Positions 50,924 to 64,000 of a stretch of 64,000 nt of DNA are shown piece by piece. Numbering within the stretch: position 1 is the first letter of the stretch; each line of letters starts with the position of its first letter. Below the pieces are notes generated by a model. It was not told the origin of the DNA. It did not search any database and worked only from the letters and a program-made list of their open reading frames with translations. A program made the translations under genes and the position numbers. Location of the stretch: the NCBI RefSeq assembly GCF_900110535.1, contig NZ_FOJA01000002.1:1-64000 (forward strand). The letters run 5' to 3'. The stretch comes from Halobacterium jilantaiense. Its GTDB lineage: Archaea; Halobacteriota; Halobacteria; Halobacteriales; Halobacteriaceae.

Positions 50924-53887
50924 TTAGGACACTTCCACGACTTGATCGTTAGGATCACCAATAATGCGTAGTTCAGTATCAACCGCCTCTAACCACTCCT
51001 TACAGGTCAGCAGTAGTGTATTGATGTTAGCCCGTGTTCGGGCCTTGTCGTGGTCCAGCCCAGGTTGAACGATATACACTCTGAAGTCCCACTCGTTCGG
51101 CTGAAATCTTGTCTCGATTTCATCGAATCCCTCTTCATTCAGTTTGAACCCCTCTACACCAGTATTCTCTTGACGATACCGAATCCGCTTTGGAAGCCCA
51201 CTGTTCCTAATCCACGCTATACTCCGGAATACCTGATCAACAACATCACGAACGTCTTCGAGACGCGCTCCACTTTTTTTGCTTTTTTTGCATGCCTTGC
51301 AGTGGTAGAGGCTAATGCGCTTTTGAGACGGCTCGAACTGAACATAGTCTGCTATCTCACCGGTCGTATGATCACAGAACAGAATTTGTTCATTCTCACC
51401 GTTTGCCTCGATAAAGTTCTCTACCCAGGCGTGAACATGAATGAGTCCCTCGGCATCTGTGTCATTATCATCAAACGAGTATTCTCCCCACGTAGCACAT
51501 CCCGACCAATCGATCTTCGATTCTTCAACAAAACAAGTCGACGGAACCTCTGAAAGTTCTTGTTTGACCTTGTGTCCGCGCCCATTATACACTAAGGTCC
51601 CGTCACCTGTGCAGAAGTACAACGGATAACGGTTGAAAAACATCTCACCGGTCCATTCGCTGGTCTGGTTCCTGCTGACTATCCTGAACTGACAGTTAGC
51701 GAGTTGACCGGTCAGTTCATTATCTGCGATATTGTACGTGCCAGATAGCGACTGCGCTGTCTCATATGGAGTATAGGAGAATTCGACAGCAGTGGGCTCA
51801 TCGGTCTGGTAGGTGAGGTCTCTTAGAGCAGATTCCTTCACGGGCTGCCATCCACCCTCCTCGTGTACTTCGCTTGTATTAATCTCAACATCGAGTTGTT
51901 GAAGCGCAGGATTGAGAGTCCCGTATACTGGATCTGCAGGGAACTCGTCGATGCGGCGAACCTCCCCTAACCCGAGTTTAGGTGCGACAGATTCGAATTC
52001 ATATTTCTCAAGTTTGCCCGCGAGACCCTGACACCACGAAATGAAATCACCAATTCCCTCCCTACCAGTGGACCAAACACGCCCCTGATCATTGCTAATG
52101 CCAATGATCTCTTCATCAACCTCTGCAACTGCATGGCCTTGAGCGAAGGCCTGTGCATCTGTTTGCCTCACAGCTCCCTCCACCCGGTCACCAAGATACA
52201 TTTTATAGGAAGGGAGACTCCCAGACGGCCCCAGTGCGTTGGCTAGTCCTGCAACTTGGTACTCAATATCGACCTCTGCCTGCAGCATTCGGACGAGTGA
52301 TTCACCGCCGTAGATTTCAATTTCATCGGATACTATCTGGCTACGAATACGGTCAGATAGCTCATCTGATGAGGAAGCTTCAAACAGAGTCTCGGTTTCG
52401 TCGTGATAGTAGTAGAGATGGAGGTCATATTGACGGTAGTCAAGCGGAGTTCTAGTCCCCCAGGTCGGTTTATCGATTTTCTCGGTGATCAGCCCAAGAA
52501 ACACCTCGTCGGATCGGGGCAGTTTGTAGACGATAGTGTCGTCGTCAAGTGAAACGTCAGCTACCAAGTCGACGTCAGACTCCGTACTCTCGTAAAGTCG
52601 AGTGCTGCGGTACGGTTGGAGGTCTCGCTCATTGACGCCTCGAAGCGCATCTTGTCCGGCAGTAGTCGCTGCTACGTTTGTCTCAATATATTTGTCGACG
52701 AGTTCTGGAACGAGCTGACGCCAGCCTGCATCCTCATGATACAATCGCTTGACGACATCATCAACCCCGGCCTCACGCAACTTGTCTGGGTCAGCGATAA
52801 CTGTTGCAGCGACATCCGAATCTTCCGCAGGTCGAGTGACACGGCCAATTAGTTGGAGTGTGAAAGCAAACGACTTCGGGGGCTGATGAAGCACTGCAAC
52901 CTTCAGATCCGCAATATCGACCCCCTCACCCAGCATCCCAACAGCAACGACCCCGTCAAGTTCTCCATCTTGAAGTGCGCTGATCGTCTCTGCATTTTGT
53001 TTGGACGTCCGGTCCGAATGAATCGCCTCAACATCAAGCCCATGGCTGCTGTAGACATCTTCCAAGCCTTGAGCAGTAGAGATTTTATCACACCGTACTA
53101 GAAGCTTAGCACTGGAGTAGTCCGTTCTAATATCTGCCAGCTCGGTAGCCGCTGCTACTGCCAATTTGCTATCCGGATCGTCAGCACGATACGTCGAAAC
53201 TTCGGTCAAAGACAATGGTTGATATAATCGTTCTTCCATCGCATTGCTCAGAGGATAGTGATACACCATCCGGCCCGGTAGCGTCTGTCGGTCACGACGG
53301 AATGGAGTCGCAGTCAACAATACCCGCTTAGCGCTGTCTACGGTCTCGAGTAGTTCCATCCAGCTGGGAGCTCTGATGTGATGTGCCTCATCGAAAAAGA
53401 CGAGATCAAATTTCTCTTCAGGAGGACTGACAATAGAATCTGAGTACTGGTCCGAGTCATAGACCTTGCTGATATTGTGAGGGAGAGTAACTACAACATC
53501 CTCATCCAATTCGTCCCAGGTCTCCTCGTCGGTGACCCTTGAGGTAACTGTTGCAACAGAAGGGGTGTCAAGTTTGTCATCAACAACGCCAGCTTGTCTC
53601 AGGCCATCTAGCTGTTTGAATTTCGCTGCGGTTTGGGTACGAAGCACGTCAGATGCAGTCACGACGAGTACTTGCTTCTCGCTCAGTCCAAACGCCAATA
53701 ACATCATCAGCGCTGTCTTCCCGGAACCAGTCGGCATTGACACCAGTGCTGGCTCATCTTCGTATGCCGTGAAGTGGCTCTTGACGCCCCAGAAACCACC
53801 TGCTTGACAGGATCTTATTCCCTCCATGCCTTCCGAGCCGAACTGCTGAAAATTGATCTGATCAGCGTGATCGGCGAAGTAGCCCAT
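50924..53887 (-). CDS. Lone SF2 DEAD/DEAH-box helicase
   Basis: 987 residues. Walker A PTGSGKT at 52-58, VLVVTASDVLRTQTA (motif Ia), VFFDEAHHI (motif II), LLTATPF (motif III), GMLGEGVDIADLKVAVL (motif V) and LQLIGRVTRP (motif VI) form a complete helicase core in the first ~430 residues. The remaining ~550 residues are beta-rich, unrecognised, and include a Cys/His cluster (FCDHTTGE, then YHCKACKK near 860-895) that could bind zinc. No partner gene touches it: the CoiA-like pseudogene converges on it and a mobile-element relic lies upstream. Codon choice is less GC-biased than in the BREX genes, so it may have a separate origin. A single-gene defence helicase is possible but not shown. Confidence 0.82.
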   Translation of the reverse strand: MGYFADHADQINFQQFGSEGMEGIRSCQAGGFWGVKSHFTAYEDEPALVSMPTGSGKTALMMLLAFGLSEKQVLVVTASDVLRTQTAAKFKQLDGLRQAGVVDDKLDTPSVATVTSRVTDEETWDELDEDVVVTLPHNISKVYDSDQYSDSIVSPPEEKFDLVFFDEAHHIRAPSWMELLETVDSAKRVLLTATPFRRDRQTLPGRMVYHYPLSNAMEERLYQPLSLTEVSTYRADDPDSKLAVAAATELADIRTDYSSAKLLVRCDKISTAQGLEDVYSSHGLDVEAIHSDRTSKQNAETISALQDGELDGVVAVGMLGEGVDIADLKVAVLHQPPKSFAFTLQLIGRVTRPAEDSDVAATVIADPDKLREAGVDDVVKRLYHEDAGWRQLVPELVDKYIETNVAATTAGQDALRGVNERDLQPYRSTRLYESTESDVDLVADVSLDDDTIVYKLPRSDEVFLGLITEKIDKPTWGTRTPLDYRQYDLHLYYYHDETETLFEASSSDELSDRIRSQIVSDEIEIYGGESLVRMLQAEVDIEYQVAGLANALGPSGSLPSYKMYLGDRVEGAVRQTDAQAFAQGHAVAEVDEEIIGISNDQGRVWSTGREGIGDFISWCQGLAGKLEKYEFESVAPKLGLGEVRRIDEFPADPVYGTLNPALQQLDVEINTSEVHEEGGWQPVKESALRDLTYQTDEPTAVEFSYTPYETAQSLSGTYNIADNELTGQLANCQFRIVSRNQTSEWTGEMFFNRYPLYFCTGDGTLVYNGRGHKVKQELSEVPSTCFVEESKIDWSGCATWGEYSFDDNDTDAEGLIHVHAWVENFIEANGENEQILFCDHTTGEIADYVQFEPSQKRISLYHCKACKKSKKSGARLEDVRDVVDQVFRSIAWIRNSGLPKRIRYRQENTGVEGFKLNEEGFDEIETRFQPNEWDFRVYIVQPGLDHDKARTRANINTLLLTCKEWLEAVDTELRIIGDPNDQVVEVS

Positions 53888-55003: not shown

Positions 55004-56311
55004 GTGGAGGAAAATACTGTGAGCGACGTAACAGCCCCAGAAACCGACCGGGGCTGGGAGAGCGTCGACGACGTCTCGTGGACCCTCCTCGATCTGGACG
55101 AACTCGTCGACGCGTACTGGGCTGTCGTCGCTCCGGTGATGGAGACAGACGGGCTCGATCCAAATCGAGAGAAACCGACACACAGCTGGCTCCGCGACCA
55201 CGGCTTTCGGCCGCTTCTCTACGCCCTACGGGAGTATCACGACAGGACCTTCGCAGAATTTTGGCGTGAGGACCTCGAGATCGACACCGTAGAATCGGGC
55301 TACGACTGGGCAACCGACCACGAACGGACGATCGAGGCACTCGAGTCCTTTCTCACGTCACGGCGAGAGCGGAAGGGGCTCGCAGACTCGTCGATCGATA
55401 CTCTCCGCTACCGATTGAACCGCTACGTCACCGCCTACTACGAGGAGAATGATACCGGTGACCTCGTGACACCCGTTGCTCGAGATGGTGATATCCCGGC
55501 CTACAAAGCAGTCGATGCGTGTTGGACAGCGTTCGACCGCCTGCACGCGGATATCGACGGTGGGCAAACCAAACGCCGGATTCATCTCGCGGTTTCGAAT
55601 TGGTATGCGCATTTGGTGCGTCGGAAATGGGCTGCAGTGAACCCCGCTGACGGCCTCGACGACGAGTTCGATTGGTCAAACGGCAATGACGACGATACGG
55701 ATACGCCATGTCTCGCCACCGAGCACGTTCGCGCACTCTACAAGGCGGCAGACGGCCAGGAGGACCGCCTTCTGGTACTCGCCCTGTGTGCCTGGGGTCT
55801 TCGTCCGAATGAGGTTGCTAGCCTACGAGCGCGTCAATTCGTTCTTGACGTCTCTACCGACGAAATTCCGTATATTACGTTCGAGGAGCGGAAGAACGGG
55901 CCCGGCGAGGTGTCTCTCCTCTACGGTAAGGAGGTACTCGAAGACCGCCTCGCAATGTTCTCCGATTGCGAGGACTGGGATGGCTATCTATTTCCGTCGC
56001 CACACGCCTCACGCGGCCCGATTTCCCGGTGGACAGTCTGGAACCGCTTCACACAGCTCGCTGAACGAGCTGGCCTTCCTGACGAGATTGGCGGCGTCTC
56101 TCCCTCGCCAAAGATGGGGCGACGCTTCTGGTATGACGCCTATTCCTCGTCACTCGATGTCGTCCTCGAAAGCCTTGACGAGATTGCGGCCGAGCAAGGA
56201 AGCGCGAGTGCCGACGTCGTAATGCAAAATTATCTCTCAGATTCGCGGGCCCGGAAGCTTCGTCGAGAGTATATGCGGGACCAGTTAGCTGCCGCCTTCG
56301 AGGAATCTTGA
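55004..56311 (+). CDS. Tyrosine recombinase/integrase (XerC-like)
   Basis: 435 residues from a GTG; a second GTG at 55019 is equally possible. An N-terminal SAM-like core-binding domain (about 100-215) precedes the catalytic domain. Visible catalytic elements are CAWGLRPNEVASLR (Arg267), a KMGRRFWYD box (Arg373/374) in place of the usual H-x-x-R, and the probable nucleophile in MQNYLSDS (Tyr410). Haloarchaeal plasmids and proviruses carry such recombinases for dimer resolution or integration. It lies just before the repeat block and ParA, which favours a plasmid-maintenance role. I did not see a tRNA gene or an obvious attachment site beside it. Confidence 0.8.
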   Translation: MEENTVSDVTAPETDRGWESVDDVSWTLLDLDELVDAYWAVVAPVMETDGLDPNREKPTHSWLRDHGFRPLLYALREYHDRTFAEFWREDLEIDTVESGYDWATDHERTIEALESFLTSRRERKGLADSSIDTLRYRLNRYVTAYYEENDTGDLVTPVARDGDIPAYKAVDACWTAFDRLHADIDGGQTKRRIHLAVSNWYAHLVRRKWAAVNPADGLDDEFDWSNGNDDDTDTPCLATEHVRALYKAADGQEDRLLVLALCAWGLRPNEVASLRARQFVLDVSTDEIPYITFEERKNGPGEVSLLYGKEVLEDRLAMFSDCEDWDGYLFPSPHASRGPISRWTVWNRFTQLAERAGLPDEIGGVSPSPKMGRRFWYDAYSSSLDVVLESLDEIAAEQGSASADVVMQNYLSDSRARKLRREYMRDQLAAAFEES

Positions 56312-56339
56312 CTGACTCCAGAGTGATCTCATCTGTGTC

Positions 56340-56777
56340 TGTTATCCAGTAAATGCTCGAGGACATAACTCAGTGAATCACAGAGTCAGTGAATCAGTGA
56401 ATCCAAGAGTTGTTGAGTAACTGAATCCAAGATTCAGTAAATCATAGAGAATCGTCAAGTCAACGAATATCTGAAGCACTGAATCAATGAATCAGTGAAT
56501 CCAAGAGATAGAGATTCAATGAATCACTTACCGCAAGCAGTACAGAGTCACTGATTCAGTAACTGCCAGTAGCAAGCTCCATTCCCCAAGGAACCAGGAA
56601 CGCGGGAATTCCAGAATGCGTTGAGTCAATGAATCAGTGATTCTTTGATTTCCATCAAGCACAACACGATAAGCGTCTGTTAGCGGCTTGTACCATTGAA
56701 TACGGCACTTTAGCATTTCCAGCGCGGAATTGGATGTCTGACGTGGATTTATGAGTCATTGAATCAATGATCGTACT
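56340..56777. repeat. 8-bp TGAATCAN repeat block before parA
   Basis: About 400 nt, clearly AT-richer than the flanking genes, dominated by TGAATCA-type units in both orientations. In places they are in tandem at 8-bp spacing (for example at 56389-56405 and 56479-56502). Further copies sit around 56516-56527, 56550-56560 (inverted), 56627-56643 and 56754-56770, and one more at 58140-58150 at the end of the partner gene. Position and form suggest a partition centromere or an autoregulatory operator of ParA and its partner; replication iterons are the alternative. No replication initiator gene is in the window. Confidence 0.75.
56747..56753 (+). promoter_or_regulatory. TATA-like box of parA
   Basis: ATTTATG centred about 28 nt before the parA ATG at 56778, flanked on its right by TGAATCA-type repeats, so repeat-binding proteins could repress transcription here. 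Confidence 0.45.
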
Positions 56778-57689
56778 ATGACCGAGTCACCTCGTGGCTG
56801 GGGCGTTACACCATCGACCGGAATTCCCACGATCGCCTTCGGCAATCAGAAGGGCGGGACTGGTAAGACAACGGCGACGATCAACAGTGCCGCTGCGCTG
56901 GCCACTCGCGACCACGATGTCCTTGCGATCGATATGGACCCACAGGCCGATATGACGAAAGGACTGGGACTGGGCCCGGGCGACGACAACGACCCCTCAA
57001 GCCCGAAGAACGACCTTCCAAATACGCTCGCGACTGATGACGCGAATCTTCTCGATGTCCTCGTCGATAATCCACGCACGCACGACACGACACTCTCAGA
57101 AATCGTAATCCATAGCGACGATTACGACCACCTGAACTTCGATCTCGTGCCGAGCCACAAAGACATGGGGCTTGCCCGGGACTGGATGGACGATGCAAGT
57201 GCTCGTCTCTCGCTGAAAAGTGCCCTCGAGAAGCTGGTGGACGACGGCTATGACTACGATTTTATCTTGATCGACTGCCCACCAGATCTCTCAGTTCTGA
57301 CGGATGCAGCGTTCATCGCCGCGCAGAACGTGTTCCTGGCCGCACAAACCCAAGCGACATCCCGAGATGCCCTAGACGATCTCTGGGACCAGCTGGAATC
57401 CATCGAGGATAACCAACAAATCGAGATTTCGATCGTAGGCCTACTGGCAAATATGTATAGAGACGATGGGCAGTCACAGAAGTTCCTAGAGGCATTTGAC
57501 GAGTCATATGCGTCACTAGCGCCGATCTTCAAGCTTCCAATGCGGGTGGCGATACAGCGCGCGTGGGACAACGGCTGCGATATTTTCGAATGGGAGGACA
57601 CAAACGACCAGCAAGTCGAGCGCGACCTCTTCCTAGAGGTTGCTGAGACAATGGAACGGGCGTTCGACAAAACGCAGGTGGAGGTGTAA
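56778..57689 (+). CDS. parA: ParA-family partition ATPase
   Basis: 303 residues. The deviant Walker A KGGTGKTT (25-32), IDMDPQADMTKGLGLG (about 55-70) and FILIDCPPDLS (about 160-170) are all intact, as in ParA/Soj proteins that segregate plasmids by ATP-dependent binding to nucleoid DNA. It has no N-terminal HTH, so operator binding must come from a partner. It is followed after 2 nt by a small acidic gene, the expected place of a ParB-type adaptor, and preceded by the TGAATCAN repeats. Confidence 0.92.
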   Translation: MTESPRGWGVTPSTGIPTIAFGNQKGGTGKTTATINSAAALATRDHDVLAIDMDPQADMTKGLGLGPGDDNDPSSPKNDLPNTLATDDANLLDVLVDNPRTHDTTLSEIVIHSDDYDHLNFDLVPSHKDMGLARDWMDDASARLSLKSALEKLVDDGYDYDFILIDCPPDLSVLTDAAFIAAQNVFLAAQTQATSRDALDDLWDQLESIEDNQQIEISIVGLLANMYRDDGQSQKFLEAFDESYASLAPIFKLPMRVAIQRAWDNGCDIFEWEDTNDQQVERDLFLEVAETMERAFDKTQVEV

Positions 57690-57691
57690 CT

Positions 57692-58144
57692 ATGCCCCGA
57701 GGAATGGACGAACGATTTGAGGACCCGTCAGAGGAAGCAGAAGACGAGGAAGTCGCGGACGACGACGAAACGACGGAGGCGACGTCGGAAACAGAGAGAC
57801 AAGACCGCGAACCTGCAGCCGCCACAGACGAGCAATCAGGTCAGCATAGGGGTGCTGGCTCTGCGGATACTAAATCCGCCACTGAGGAGGCAACGGAAGC
57901 AGATGATGGACCGTTGAATATTCGGGAGGACTGGGATTCAGCCACGATATACGTTGAACCAGAACAGAGTGAGGATATCGAGGTCACATTCACGCGGCTG
58001 AAAAAGCAGTTGAAGCGGGAGGACATCACGCTCGAGAAGAACAAGCACTTCTACCGGGGGATTTTCGAAGTAGCGTTTGGGGAGCACCGCGAAGAGACGA
58101 AGGAAAAGATCCGCGAACTGGCAAAAGAAGACGGTGATCAATGA
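57692..58144 (+). CDS. Small acidic partner of ParA, function unknown
   Basis: 150 residues. The first ~75 are low-complexity Glu/Asp/Thr-rich and probably disordered. The last ~70 (from about NIREDWDSATIYVEP) form a compact basic-acidic domain with a strand and two helices (VTFTRLKKQLKRED and HREETKEKIRELAK). No HTH or ribbon-helix-helix motif is obvious. The ATG is 2 nt after the parA stop and the end of the gene contains another TGAATCA repeat, so it is the likely centromere-binding partner of ParA; this is inferred from position only. Confidence 0.65.
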   Translation: MPRGMDERFEDPSEEAEDEEVADDDETTEATSETERQDREPAAATDEQSGQHRGAGSADTKSATEEATEADDGPLNIREDWDSATIYVEPEQSEDIEVTFTRLKKQLKREDITLEKNKHFYRGIFEVAFGEHREETKEKIRELAKEDGDQ

Positions 58145-58339
58145 ATCACTGAGTCTTGGATTCAACGAAAGAGATCAACGTTGTGACTCCTGAACTACAG
58201 GAGGAAAGTTACTGTCTGGTTCAGCACCTCCTCAGCTGGAGTTCCTCCGTTGAGAGCTTGGTTCGGTCGTTCCTGGTTGTAGTTTTGACGGCGAGGCGAA
58301 GGAGCCGGACTCGTACAACAAGGCGTATCGACCCTACCT

Positions 58340-58349
58340 TTTATTTAAG
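58340..58349 (+). promoter_or_regulatory. TATA-like box of the sacsin-like gene
   Basis: The string TTTATTTAAG lies about 43 nt before the chosen GTG at 58388. It favours 58388 over the alternative GTG at 58349, which would overlap the box. Confidence 0.4.
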
Positions 58350-58387
58350 TGGGGAAAGACCGCACAGGCTACAGGTTTAGAGTTTCA

Positions 58388-61300
58388 GTGAGTGGCTCAG
58401 GGTCCCCAAAGCAGACGGTCGCAGAATTATGTCGCACTGAACACCAAGACCTCCTCGGTGCATTAACGAATGAAAGCCGGTGGAGCAAGGAGGCGGATCT
58501 TGGTGTCGGCAATCAAGTCGTCGCCTCCACGCACGAGAGTCGGACAGTTTTGGAACTCATCCAGAATTCGCGGGACGCGATTCGCGACGAATCCGACGAT
58601 GACGGACGAGTGGCTGTTATCGTCGGCCCAGAATCCTTACTCATCGCGAACACTGGTCGGCCGTTTGAACTCCACGATGATGATGTGTTCGAGGCGGTCA
58701 CTGGACTCGGCCGATCGGAAAAACTCGACAACAGCGACTCGATCGGTGAGAAAGGAGTTGGCCTCAAGTCGTTACTCCAACTGAGTGAGCGGTTTTCCGT
58801 CCATTCGGTCGTCGGTGACGATCAGCTCTCGGCACAGTTCTCTCGCTATCACGCGGGGCAGATGCTGTTAGCAGGGTACGACCACTACCTCAAGACAGAT
58901 CTCAGAAATGAGCTTGATGTCGAGAGTTCCGTCATCGAGTCGTATCAGTCTATTCTCGACGATATCCTAGATGAAGAAGCATGGTCGAGACTCCCATCAA
59001 CGCCGGATATCGACACCATCGCTGAGCGGGAGTCGACCGAGGAGCAGGCGCCGCCAGCGCCAAGCGAATTCCTCACCGATTTGCCTCGACTCTCTTTATT
59101 CCGGTACCCATTCCTCATCAGTACCGACCACGAGGAGTCGGATGCAACAGGCCGGCTCGTTGACGCCCTCCTCAAGACAGGTCAATCCTCTTCATCAACC
59201 GCAACGCCGGAGAATAAATGGCTCGAGGACCATGCCGACACTTACCAGACGGTCGTCCGGCTTGATTATGATGACCCGGAATGGACCGGGTTGCTCGATT
59301 CTGTTCAAAACGCACTCGCCGAAAGTGGTCGCGATATCGTCGACGCCTTTGAGACTAACCGGCGAAGCGCAAACGTTGGCGGACTGTCCAGCGACAAGAC
59401 ACCCCAAGCGCAATTCTGGGATGAGTGTACCGACCTCTCTGCGTCAACGCTAGTCCTCCTTGGGGAACTCGACGAAATCGACTTTCTCAAACTCGAGGGC
59501 GATGACACCGAGGAAACCGGTTCGCTTGAGATTAGTGACCGCCGGGAGGTGACTATCGAGACCGACAGTACCTACCAGTCGTCCATCGGCGATGATCCCG
59601 AACTCTCCCGAATTCCGCATACAGTCACAGAGGAAACGACCACTACTGCCGGCACAACCACCCATGAGCGAGAGTTCCTTCGATACTCACAGACACTGAC
59701 CCCAGAGGTCCATCAGTGGTTGACGGATGAGGACCGCGACATCGACGCCGAATCGGCAACGATAGATATCCTGCTGGAACAGCCGCGCCCCGAGGCAGCC
59801 GATTGGGAACCAACGCCAGAACCTCTCCACCTTTACTACCCGATTTCGGATGCTTCGACGCCGTTCCCATTCGTAATTCATGCTCCCTTCGAGGTGAGTT
59901 TCGATCGCCAACATCTCGCGACTGCTAAAAAAAACCAGACGCTACTCAAGGAGCTCCCGACGCTCATCGCGACCGTAAGCGAAGACCTCATCCAAAGCGA
60001 CGAGGCAACTCACGCACCACCGTCGGGATATCGATCGTGGATGCCGTGGCTTGTTGCCCCCGTCGACGTCGCCGAGACTGACGCCGAGACATCGCTCGCA
60101 AATGGAATCGCTGACACTCTCAGTCGACTCCAAGACACCGCGATCGTCCCGACTGACTCCCAGGAACCGTTGCAGCCGACGGCGACACTGCTCGACCCGA
60201 CGCGGTTGGAAGCCTTCGAGGCATTGCGTGGGCGGGATGCCGCGCCGCCGATCCCTGCTGCAGAGGTCATCGCGAATGGGAAAGCGTGGAAAGCCGACCT
60301 CCCCGAATCGGGACCGAGTGACCAATCCCAGTTCAACGGGTTCCTTTCCCAAATCGGGTTGACCACGATTATCGAGACGATTGCAGCAGATGCATCGGAG
60401 GATGACCTCGTGACGGTCCTCTGTGACTTCTGGAAGCGAGCCAGTACAACCACACCGGATGGTGGGTTCGATGCGTGGCATGTGACTGTCGAGCAGCCAA
60501 CCCACGCAGAGCTGTACTTCGAGGCCATAGCGGAGGCGCTAGCCGGCCACGGCGCAGATGCAGATGACGACGATGAAAACGATGCAGAAGTCGATGCAGC
60601 GACCCGCCTCGGTAGACATGGTGTCCCCCTATTGCCGGCAGAGAAACACAAGGAAGGCACATCGACGACTGAGTCGGAGGAGGCAACCGTAACCAGATTA
60701 GTTCGCGCGAGGCCCAGCGAGGGGCAATCCGATGATGGATCCCGCCAACGGAGTGAACGCATCGTCTTCCGCCGCCAGGAACCCGGTGAGTCACAACAAT
60801 CCATGGCGGAACTCCCCACTCCACCCCAACAATTACCGGTCTATATCATTCCGTATCAAAACGAGTGGGTCGGCCCGCTCAAGCGGCATAACCGACGCTG
60901 GGGGACCCGAGATCTGGAAGGGCAAGCGGCTTTCTATCGCCGTGTCGGCGCTGAAGCGGGTGGGTTCTCGGGCGACGAAAATGGCGACCCAGACGTCGTC
61001 GGCTACCTAGCCGATCTATACAAGCAATCCACAGCCGGACAAACTGCCGAGTGGGTGACCCCCCAGCCGTTCCACAACAAGCAGTTCGACGACGTCGAGG
61101 AAGTCTTCGCGTATGATACACTCACCGGTACCCCAACGGACTACGATGCGTTTCTCGAGCGACGATACGTGCAGACGATCCCGCTTCCGACCGACGACGG
61201 TAACCAACTCCCAGCCGAGCGACTGGTGTTCGGCCCCGAATGGGCGGAGCGATTCAGCGCCGTTGCGGATTCGCTCGCAAGTGAAAATGGCGTCGAGTAT

Positions 61301-64000
61301 CCATTTGCCGGGACTGATGACGGTGAGGCCGAGCCGGCCGCGAAGTTCCGACGCTGGGCCGCAGCAATCGAGTGCCGCCAGGACTTCGAACCCACGGACA
61401 CCCCAACCCTCGCGCCGCCCAGTGACGAGCAGTGGGAGGCCATCCATGCACAGATGGACCTCTCAGAGGCGGAACGCAAGCGGTGGGAACTCTACTTCTT
61501 GTTGCATCTAGGCGTCCAGGTCGGCCCCCACATCGATTGGGGGTGGCTCTTCCCTGGCCGAGGTACCGACGACCGTCGTACGGGCGCGCTATCACTCTCG
61601 GAAGTGCAGTCCCTCGCGGATGCCGACCCCGAGTTCGAAGCCAATCCACCGATTTCCCCATCTGAAGACCTGCTGGAGCGGTACCAAACGATTAGTTGGC
61701 GCTCAGAACACCATCCAGCGTTCAGTGCCGGCCACTCGGGTAGCTGTCAAAAAGATTGGTTAGACTGTGATATCGAGGAGTGGGAGTACAACAAGGACTT
61801 GGCGATCCCAACGTGGTGGCATCTCACGGAACTCAATCCAGACGCTGACCGGGGTCATCGGGAGGCAGTTCGGGATGCGACGGCGCTCATCTGGCCAGAA
61901 CTCACGGCGACCATCACAGACACTGCGTGGTACTGTGACGGTACGCATTACAGCCACCAACCGAATACACACGACGCCACGATTCCGGCGCTCGGGGTCG
62001 TCCAACTACAGGATGCGGCACTCTGGCCGGTCACGGAACCAGATACAGATGACGATCCTGCGGAACCGCCCGGTGGGTTGATGCCAGAGGACCTCCACAC
62101 AGCAAGGCCACTGATCACCGCCGACGAGCAACGCGGTGCGGCCAGCTATCTACCACGACTCGATCTCGACGAAATTATCGCAAGCATCGAGTCGCGGTTC
62201 GATTCGGATGGAGAACTTCCGAGCGTCGACATCGCATCGCTGCCGAGAATGCTTGGTGCACGGCCGCTTGATGGACTAACCCCGGCCCAAGCGGCCGATC
62301 GACTCAACGAGTTCTTAGCCAACCGTGCGGTTGCCGATACACATCGCACATACGACCATCAAGCGCTTTCGGCGATGGAATCCTCATGGGATTCCCAGTC
62401 GAATACAGTGCCCACCTATGGATTGCTACGGCGGCTCACGGCGACCTCGCAAGTCAGTCGAAAACTCACTGATGAGGAACCCAAGCGCCAGTGGATTCGC
62501 CGAGATATCTGGCATACTGGCGTTCGACTCCCAGTCCGATGGGCCGACGACTCGCTCATCCTCCACGTTGAGGAGGACATCCCACAAGTCGAGGAGCCTG
62601 AGTTACGAATCTACACGCAGCAAATCCCACAGCATGCACGCGAGCAGTTCGCTAATGACGAGTCCATTGCGATCGTCGAACGGCCCAGTCGAGAGGCACG
62701 AGCCATTGCATACCTGCTCGGGGGTGCCCCCGATGGGCCAATACCTCCGTTTGGAATTCAAACAGAGACGGAACAACCGGACCTCGGAGTTCCCGAAGAC
62801 GAGTCCGAGCCAACAGCGCAAGAACAAGATGCGATAGAGGATCTCAAATCGACACTGGAGCCCCGGATAATCTATCTGCTAGCCGCATACGATGCAGATG
62901 TATCTGAGCCCGACCATAGAGCCGTCTACAACCAGCTTAATGCGATCATCAACAATCCAATCGGGATCATTGAGAACCCAGAAGGTACGAGTTCGAGACG
63001 ATCAACGCAGTGGTCACCGCCAACCACTGCTGAGGAAAAGCCTAATCAGATCGCCATCTATCGGAGCGCAATCGACGAGCACAGTGACGATTCGACACAG
63101 ATCCCGCTATACCTCGTAGCAGATGGCCTTGCCCAAGTTATCGACCAATATTCGCTTAGGGATGTCTTCGAGAACATCCTCATCAAGCCGGATTACGCGC
63201 TCGATTACGATTACGCCGAACAGAAAGAGAATGTCCGCAAAGAACTCTCTGAGCTCCGAGAACAGCGATTCAAGCTGGTTCAAGCGGCACTAAGAACACT
63301 GCTTTCGAATATCGACGAGACGGCAAGCCCACCGGAGTTGCATATCGATCCGGACGACGATGTCGAATCGACGCTGGAGAAAATGGCGAACGCACCGAAC
63401 GGGACTGAGGACACGGTCGTCAATGCGTGGGTGGGGGCATTCACGACTGCAGGGCTTGCCGAACCGGTCACCCGGTATTGTATTGCGGCCGCAGCGACGG
63501 AGGAGTTCTACGCACGACTCCAACATGTTGCTACAGCACTCCAGAACGCCTCAGAGCTTCATCGCGATGACTTAAGAGACCACCAAGTTTGGGATGAACT
63601 CGATTCGTGGCCGACCAACAGCGACGTCGAGTCCCTCCGAAAGTACCTCACTGCCGTCGCCAAAATTGACGCCTTCTGGGCGACGTACACCGATAGCGAA
63701 TCAGATGCAGAAACCGCCTTCGCCCTAGCCGTCGAAACAGCTGCCAACCCAACAGCGCCACCGGCGCCACTGACACCAGTCATAGAGGGCATTCCCGCAG
63801 GCGACCGCGTGGCGACAGCGCTCAGGGACCGCTTACTGATCGAACTCCCAAAACAGAGTGACGGGCCCATTCCCGAGTCCATTATAACGACCGTCGCCGA
63901 ATGGCACGCAACCCGCCACGATACGTTCGCCGCCTCACTAAGTGAGGACGATGACACCAGCAAGCTCCTCAAGGCGTTCACAACGGCGCTCGAGAACCCC
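58388..64000 (+). CDS. Very large sacsin-like GHKL ATPase, 3' end missing
   Basis: The frame is open for 1871 codons and leaves the window. The N-terminal ~250 residues carry a Hsp90/histidine-kinase-type (GHKL) ATP site: N-box VLELIQNSRDA (Asn60), LLIANTGRPF (87-93) and the glycine-rich IGEKGVGLKSLL (119-130). The rest is acidic with many Trp and no motif I recognise; a coiled-coil-like stretch lies near 1605-1650. Similar sacsin-type proteins are large single-gene defence candidates in archaea and bacteria, often ending in a DUF3883 nuclease-like domain; whether that is present cannot be seen. The start at GTG 58388 is chosen because an in-frame stop lies at 58346 and a TATA-like box precedes it. 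Confidence 0.8.
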   Translation, partial: MSGSGSPKQTVAELCRTEHQDLLGALTNESRWSKEADLGVGNQVVASTHESRTVLELIQNSRDAIRDESDDDGRVAVIVGPESLLIANTGRPFELHDDDVFEAVTGLGRSEKLDNSDSIGEKGVGLKSLLQLSERFSVHSVVGDDQLSAQFSRYHAGQMLLAGYDHYLKTDLRNELDVESSVIESYQSILDDILDEEAWSRLPSTPDIDTIAERESTEEQAPPAPSEFLTDLPRLSLFRYPFLISTDHEESDATGRLVDALLKTGQSSSSTATPENKWLEDHADTYQTVVRLDYDDPEWTGLLDSVQNALAESGRDIVDAFETNRRSANVGGLSSDKTPQAQFWDECTDLSASTLVLLGELDEIDFLKLEGDDTEETGSLEISDRREVTIETDSTYQSSIGDDPELSRIPHTVTEETTTTAGTTTHEREFLRYSQTLTPEVHQWLTDEDRDIDAESATIDILLEQPRPEAADWEPTPEPLHLYYPISDASTPFPFVIHAPFEVSFDRQHLATAKKNQTLLKELPTLIATVSEDLIQSDEATHAPPSGYRSWMPWLVAPVDVAETDAETSLANGIADTLSRLQDTAIVPTDSQEPLQPTATLLDPTRLEAFEALRGRDAAPPIPAAEVIANGKAWKADLPESGPSDQSQFNGFLSQIGLTTIIETIAADASEDDLVTVLCDFWKRASTTTPDGGFDAWHVTVEQPTHAELYFEAIAEALAGHGADADDDDENDAEVDAATRLGRHGVPLLPAEKHKEGTSTTESEEATVTRLVRARPSEGQSDDGSRQRSERIVFRRQEPGESQQSMAELPTPPQQLPVYIIPYQNEWVGPLKRHNRRWGTRDLEGQAAFYRRVGAEAGGFSGDENGDPDVVGYLADLYKQSTAGQTAEWVTPQPFHNKQFDDVEEVFAYDTLTGTPTDYDAFLERRYVQTIPLPTDDGNQLPAERLVFGPEWAERFSAVADSLASENGVEYPFAGTDDGEAEPAAKFRRWAAAIECRQDFEPTDTPTLAPPSDEQWEAIHAQMDLSEAERKRWELYFLLHLGVQVGPHIDWGWLFPGRGTDDRRTGALSLSEVQSLADADPEFEANPPISPSEDLLERYQTISWRSEHHPAFSAGHSGSCQKDWLDCDIEEWEYNKDLAIPTWWHLTELNPDADRGHREAVRDATALIWPELTATITDTAWYCDGTHYSHQPNTHDATIPALGVVQLQDAALWPVTEPDTDDDPAEPPGGLMPEDLHTARPLITADEQRGAASYLPRLDLDEIIASIESRFDSDGELPSVDIASLPRMLGARPLDGLTPAQAADRLNEFLANRAVADTHRTYDHQALSAMESSWDSQSNTVPTYGLLRRLTATSQVSRKLTDEEPKRQWIRRDIWHTGVRLPVRWADDSLILHVEEDIPQVEEPELRIYTQQIPQHAREQFANDESIAIVERPSREARAIAYLLGGAPDGPIPPFGIQTETEQPDLGVPEDESEPTAQEQDAIEDLKSTLEPRIIYLLAAYDADVSEPDHRAVYNQLNAIINNPIGIIENPEGTSSRRSTQWSPPTTAEEKPNQIAIYRSAIDEHSDDSTQIPLYLVADGLAQVIDQYSLRDVFENILIKPDYALDYDYAEQKENVRKELSELREQRFKLVQAALRTLLSNIDETASPPELHIDPDDDVESTLEKMANAPNGTEDTVVNAWVGAFTTAGLAEPVTRYCIAAAATEEFYARLQHVATALQNASELHRDDLRDHQVWDELDSWPTNSDVESLRKYLTAVAKIDAFWATYTDSESDAETAFALAVETAANPTAPPAPLTPVIEGIPAGDRVATALRDRLLIELPKQSDGPIPESIITTVAEWHATRHDTFAASLSEDDDTSKLLKAFTTALENP

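Follow-up and report, generated by a model that had tools for sequence, protein, structure and literature searches.

A small ParA, and downstream of it a small DNA-binding partner with a flexible N-terminus, are encoded by ParFGH of TP228, a type Ib partition system. In the MetJ system, tandem 8-bp palindromic met boxes are read by a ribbon-helix-helix (RHH) dimer. For omega, a passage in PMC9499535 describes sites of 7–10 consecutive repeats that overlap the promoters of partition genes, with at least 4 contiguous repeats needed to activate ParA. SegAB of the Sulfolobales consists of a ParA-type ATPase followed by a small site-specific DNA-binding protein, with sites upstream of segA (passages in PMC5120986 and PMC12284271), and AspA-ParBA of pNOB8 is an archaeal plasmid partition system (passage in PMC5120986). 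A passage of the same source (PMC5120986) counts the appearance of archaeal plasmid centromeres among the outstanding questions.

The locus described here is located in a stretch of 64,000 bp, referred to as the window, which corresponds to bases 1–64000 of a 132,812-bp contig from a 2.95-Mb genome in two contigs and is very probably from a plasmid of a Halobacterium species. Like delta-omega of pSM19035, it combines a ParA and a small partner with contiguous short repeats. However, the omega heptads are 7-bp and non-palindromic (WATCACW) whereas the unit here is 8-bp and palindromic (TGANTCAN), and the partner, which is archaeal and may have an RHH fold, includes an acidic linker of 50–70 residues and has no sequence relation to omega that was found. 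ParFGH shares the small ParA and downstream partner, but its repeats and partner differ and no ParG match was found here. SegAB is similar in that an archaeal ParA-type ATPase is followed by a small partner, but the SegB motif is the 13-bp TCTAGASTCTAGA, scattered over a chromosome. AspA-ParBA includes three genes, a 23-bp palindrome and a ParB-like protein, whereas the module here has two genes and 8-bp units, and the likeness of the array to the boxes of MetJ, which is a metabolic repressor, is one of box layout. Omega heptad sites were rejected, as WATCACW occurs at 3 scattered positions in 3,022 bp (1.1 expected, with as many in 20 of 200 shuffles). SegB sites were likewise rejected, with TCTAGASTCTAGA at 3 mismatches found 9 times in the window against 12.9 expected, and not at all in 56312–58165. 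A type Ia or chromosomal HTH ParB was rejected because the partner has no ParB or HTH family match at E values up to 1.

The repeats are held in a 466-bp gap (56312–56777) bordered upstream by a tyrosine-recombinase-like gene (55004–56311, a weak match) and downstream by parA. The GC content of the gap is 42%, compared with 51–66% across the 2-kb blocks of the window. Downstream of the module, a very large open frame (58349–64000 and beyond, >1884 aa) encodes at the N-terminus a match to an ATP-binding domain of sacsin type (NF047352, E 2.4e-17). A ResIII-type helicase gene in the 50924–53887 region adjoins this frame, and the pair is possibly defence-related.

The repeat unit is an 8-bp palindromic TGA-N-TCA-N in tandem, arranged in five in-register clusters within the gap and a sixth at the partner stop codon, none of which is assigned a strand. 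Cluster I (56366–56445) consists of 10 contiguous units, some degenerate, with the consensus given above; by a matrix derived from relatives, 9 of the 10 score at least 3.9 and one scores 1.4. Cluster II (56448–56527) also has 10 contiguous units, includes TGAATCAATGAATCAGTGAATCC, and is offset by 2 bp in register relative to cluster I. Two units make up cluster III (56544–56559) and four contiguous units cluster IV (56622–56653); clusters I and II, with ten units each, and cluster IV, with four, compare with the omega minimum of four contiguous repeats (passage in PMC9499535). Cluster V (56752–56767), two units, TGAGTCAT and TGAATCAA, stands between a TATA-like element and the start of parA and is a putative autorepression operator. 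Cluster VI (58142–58165) has three units, and the leading three bases of the first are the partner stop codon TGA (58142–58144).

Exact copies of TGAWTCA number 8 in the gap, and 18 are found at no more than one mismatch; neither count was reached in any of 2000 shuffles of this gap that preserved dinucleotides (means 0.32 and 3.6, respectively). Lag-8 identity is 0.395 in the gap, whereas the window averages 0.246 (sd 0.023), and the 63,534 bp of the window outside the gap contain 9 exact copies. A single TGAATCA is not rare genome-wide (126 in 2.95 Mb), but two adjacent exact units, TGANTCANTGANTCA, occur at only three places in the 2.95-Mb genome, all inside the gap. The scoring matrix was built from neighbouring units of relatives, with the window left out and close relatives (93–97% ParA identity) kept in. 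In a scan of the + strand of the 64 kb, the 33 best four-unit stretches all fell in the gap or at 58126–58142, with a top score of 33.6 compared with 9.5 for the best elsewhere in the window. The original prediction of tandem repeats at 8-bp spacing before parA, with a copy at the end of the partner gene, is borne out by these data, and the motif was not found to be equally common elsewhere. Copies in both orientations, as it had also proposed, are present, but as the unit is palindromic except for the centre base, these are mostly units with A or T at the centre.

Conservation was assessed in 35 non-duplicate loci, the window included, with parA of at least 80% identity; L005, L016, L054 and L055 (duplicates), L035 and L038 (without parA) and L040 (degraded parA) were left out. 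Upstream of parA, these loci contain 319 TGANTCA in 18,340 bp, compared with 1 in 31,761 bp inside parA, and the upstream count is above all 200 of the locus's own shuffles in 35 of 35. The centre base is A in 156, G in 75, T in 74 and C in 14, and of the 284 gaps between successive sites, 190 are divisible by 8 (one eighth of the total would be 35.5). Units 8 bp apart share the degenerate consensus T-G-A-N-T-C-A-N, which amounts to inverted half-sites TGA/TCA every 4 bp. When eight near relatives were compared with the window, TGA/TCA positions were the best kept (identity 0.840), followed by the bases between units (0.770) and the N positions (0.701). The unit is retained over a ParA range down to 83% identity in relatives from many genera, and the unit pair before the parA start, ATTTATGAGTCATTGAWTCAATGA, is near-identical and in nearly the same place among the tier-1 loci listed.

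An unbiased pattern search of 292 Halobacteria genomes detected three tandem units, TGAWTCANTGAWTCANTGAWTC, in 21, while the reversed pattern was found in none of the 292. A full-length parA of the same family is at the locus in 18 of the 21, and in one (G277) a degraded parA copy is accompanied by an array still in place. The remaining two, G014 and G237, carry arrays without parA. The G014 array (L120, G014:C3:2452121) has ∼11 TGANTCA in ∼0.8 kb of a 3.1-Mb contig, with no parA or partner within 3 kb, and looks like a relic. In G237 (L108, G237:C3:185926–185947), an intergenic four-unit stretch of TGANTCAN, 43 kb from the genome's own parA module on the same contig, is possibly a second, satellite site. 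Counted by contig, there is one further array place without parA, at the end of G098:C32, and G098:C6 opens with an array, suggesting that the assembly broke within the repeats. No ParA or partner relative was found near any of 8 viral stretches with three tandem units, indicating that outside haloarchaea the pattern is not by itself a diagnostic feature.

The parA gene (56778–57689, + strand) predicts a 303-aa ParA-type ATPase with a deviant Walker A motif, QKGGTGKTT, and the P-loop KGGTGKTT near residue 25. The product matches AAA_31 (E 3.8e-36), for which it is the sole match on the contig, phrog_164 (E 4.6e-41) and, among PDB sequences, ParF of TP228, and has no HTH family match, i.e. no N-terminal HTH domain was seen. 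A promoter-like element, TCTGACG...ATTTAT (56737–56752, + strand), is conserved before the gene. The TTTAT portion, ∼30–26 bp ahead of the start codon, fits the TATA box of a leaderless transcript, given the layout of haloarchaeal leaderless promoters. TCTGAC(G/A) precedes a TATA-like box across distant ParA clades (56737–56743 in the window, the tier-1 loci, L046, L048, L051, L060, L062, L041, L042, L050 and L070), and to our knowledge this element differs from the usual BRE.

The partner gene (57692–58144, + strand) lies directly downstream of parA, after a gap of 2 bp, an order that is kept in relatives, and encodes a putative centromere-binding protein of 150 aa. The protein has a conserved N-terminal MPRGMDERF motif, after which come an acidic linker of variable sequence and a conserved C-terminal domain (approximately residues 74–150). 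MPRGMxERF is invariant at the N-terminus, and in distant partners an aromatic/arginine pattern was seen by eye near the N-terminus, e.g. GIADRFG and NPWEDRYD. Within the C-terminal domain, W, Y, K and FY positions are invariant or nearly so, and NI(K/R)xxWxxxTIYxPxx is followed first by a long amphipathic segment and then by KKN(R/K)HFYPLLV.

Partner homologs were found in 81 of 292 Halobacteria genomes, ∼36 of them close and the rest near 25% identity, and none in viral contigs. The tier-1 named partner loci number 36 and are nearly all haloarchaeal; two, labelled as MAGs of other groups and derived from one sediment sample, may be mis-binned. The partner occurs in 27 PLSDB records, all of them haloarchaeal plasmids; the annotated matches are without exception labelled 'hypothetical protein', three matches fall under no annotated feature and one record is unannotated. 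When a profile of the domain was applied to 294 genomes of the phylum, 29 matched, all in the window's order, and the domain defines a family that was found here in Halobacteria only. Extra partner copies, consisting mostly of the C-terminal domain and with no adjoining parA of the same family, are present at L038 (G046:C4:7194–7463), L106 and L324 (3001–3252), the last being an unannotated copy in Halobacterium salinarum pKBTZ02_38 beside a different ParA pair.

Profile and sequence searches of Pfam, NCBIfam, PHROGs and PDB assigned the partner to no family and returned only weak matches to unrelated ones. AlphaFold2 models were of low confidence (pLDDT 50.8 for the full partner and 54.4 for the C-terminal domain), with helices at 21–40, 49–60 and 66–79 of the domain at pLDDT 54, and Foldseek gave no match to the domain model at E ≤0.001 (4 matches, best E 8.5). 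In 31 relatives, the domain reads as one strand followed by two helices, the first of them long, a pattern that suggests a ribbon-helix-helix. In hhalign comparisons, a 21-member domain set against RHH_1 was equalled by 1 of 60 shuffles; with ten more divergent members, the strand-helix part scored 15.8 against haloarchaeal RHH_1 proteins, with 0 of 100 column shuffles as high but a probability of only 2.7%. As the probability stayed at 1.4–2.7%, an RHH is not claimed. The original prediction that the partner has no evident RHH fold holds with respect to library matches, but the strand-helix-helix pattern and the RHH_1 comparison hint at a divergent one. It could even be that the DNA-binding domain adopts a new fold, though a divergent RHH is more likely.

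No TGANTCA arrays were found at distant partner-family loci, where further repeat classes were spotted by eye before being counted. In the AACGAA class (15 loci), 165 AACGAA lie between 500 bp upstream and 45 bp inside parA, whereas the other 11,796 bp of parA contain 8. Upstream spacing is a multiple of 9 in 84 of 150 gaps, and nearly all copies are on the coding strand (13 loci with at least 500 bp upstream, counted on both strands). TGAAACG in three loci and CACAGAA in four occur both at the start of parA and within the linker of the partner, and additional 9-bp series were seen by eye in single loci (L048, L317 and L318). Tandem AACGAA is common in viral contigs, and the stretches examined encode no ParA or partner relatives. 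A tree of ParA with 37 rows has, for every one of the four classes, a strongly supported branch with that class alone on one side, and the class labels require 4 changes, which is the minimum and was equalled by 0 of 200 shuffles. Several host families are represented within the AACGAA class and likewise within the TGANTCA class, indicating that the repeat follows the module and not the host.

The 9-bp repeats seen at the parA promoter recur in the partner linker codons of L041, L042, L050, L046, L051, L060, L062, L044, L047, L049 and others. Counts were compared with a null in which the same linker peptides were back-translated using codon frequencies from elsewhere in the module (2000 draws). 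The linkers contain 43 AACGAA in 13 loci (5.6 expected), 10 TGAAACG (0.81 expected) and 7 CACAGAA (0.82 expected), with 0 of 2000 draws giving as many in each case, although these counts are non-independent as the sequences are related. In the AACGAA class, glutamate is encoded by GAA in 99 of 142 linker codons and in 116 of 441 elsewhere. The excess over the synonymous null argues that the linker DNA is either selected as DNA or built by repeat expansion. Spacing between linker repeats is a multiple of 9 in only 6 of 36 gaps for AACGAA, compared with 4 of 7 for TGAAACG and 7 of 7 for CACAGAA, and the coding register appears cleaner in the latter two, both of which are small samples. The 8-bp class has no repeats in the linker, which would be expected given that 8 is not a multiple of 3. 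A plausible, though tentative, wider reading is that these loci belong to a superfamily of haloarchaeal plasmid ParA modules with a binding-protein family unrelated in sequence to described ones and cognate repeats that co-diverge, in which the 9-bp classes write part of the centromere into the linker codons (9 bp being three codons), such that peptide and DNA site are co-selected, whereas the 8-bp array lies outside the gene. Should the repeats within codons prove to be genuine binding sites, a single DNA stretch would be both centromere and protein linker.

The features of a partition module are present in the window, namely a ParA with deviant Walker A and no HTH, a small partner encoded directly downstream in the same operon and short tandem repeats beside parA. 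The array is, with high confidence, predicted to serve a plasmid partition module as both centromere (parS) and operator, acting via putative binding by the 150-residue partner. In support of the original prediction of an omega-like centromere or operator array tied to parA and the partner, the array stays with parA across genera, is absent from parA coding sequence and changes class with the ParA/partner clade. The module would be type Ib-like ParABS, for which repeat binding, ATPase stimulation and plasmid stabilisation are predicted. Position, tandem register, palindromic unit, partner layout and the autoregulatory site point to a mechanism like that of omega or ParG (passage in PMC9499535). 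Partner dimers would use the C-terminal domain to occupy the 8-bp palindromic boxes one after another, forming a side-by-side polymer along clusters I and II and leaving a free N-terminal tail (MPRGMDERF, with its conserved Arg) that may touch nucleoid-bound ParA-ATP and stimulate its ATPase. The plasmid would then follow a ParA gradient, leading to segregation, and partner bound at cluster V would repress the parA-partner operon.

The position of cluster V, with the TATA-like element on one side and the start codon on the other, would also be expected if the repeats were an operator only, bound by the partner or another regulator with no role in segregation, and omega-type proteins do also regulate (passage in PMC9499535). 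However, two 10-unit clusters 250–410 bp upstream and a further cluster after the stop codon exceed the need of one promoter, and the binding candidate is the partner of a ParA, making this explanation unlikely. Iterons are typical of plasmid origins, and an Orc1/Cdc6 gene shares the contig, so that the repeats might instead serve a Rep or Orc1/Cdc6 protein. That match (67539–67826) is ∼11 kb from the array, orc1/cdc6 is ∼9 kb from parA in a Halobaculum plasmid, and a DL1 plasmid has no annotated orc1/cdc6 within 9 kb. A replication-origin function was rejected on account of these distances and is very improbable, as the array also tracks the ParA clade. Neutral slippage or AT-rich low complexity could produce short units in variable numbers, but would predict equal decay, which is contradicted by core positions being kept above both the N and between-unit bases; with the tandem pattern absent elsewhere in the genome and the unit kept to 83% ParA identity, this origin is hardly credible.

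Among the titles and abstract openings searched, in a coverage mostly outside subscription journals, no published repeats of this kind, or of such a partner, were found in haloarchaea, and absence from print is not claimed. What is known is a ParA centromere system based on short repeats; what appears from the sequences to be new is the protein family, the repeat, and the codon placement in sister classes. The locus provides a defined candidate centromere for large haloarchaeal plasmids and a candidate role for a partner family that databases call hypothetical. The four natural repeat classes, pairing with different partners, would form a set for specificity-swap and incompatibility tests.
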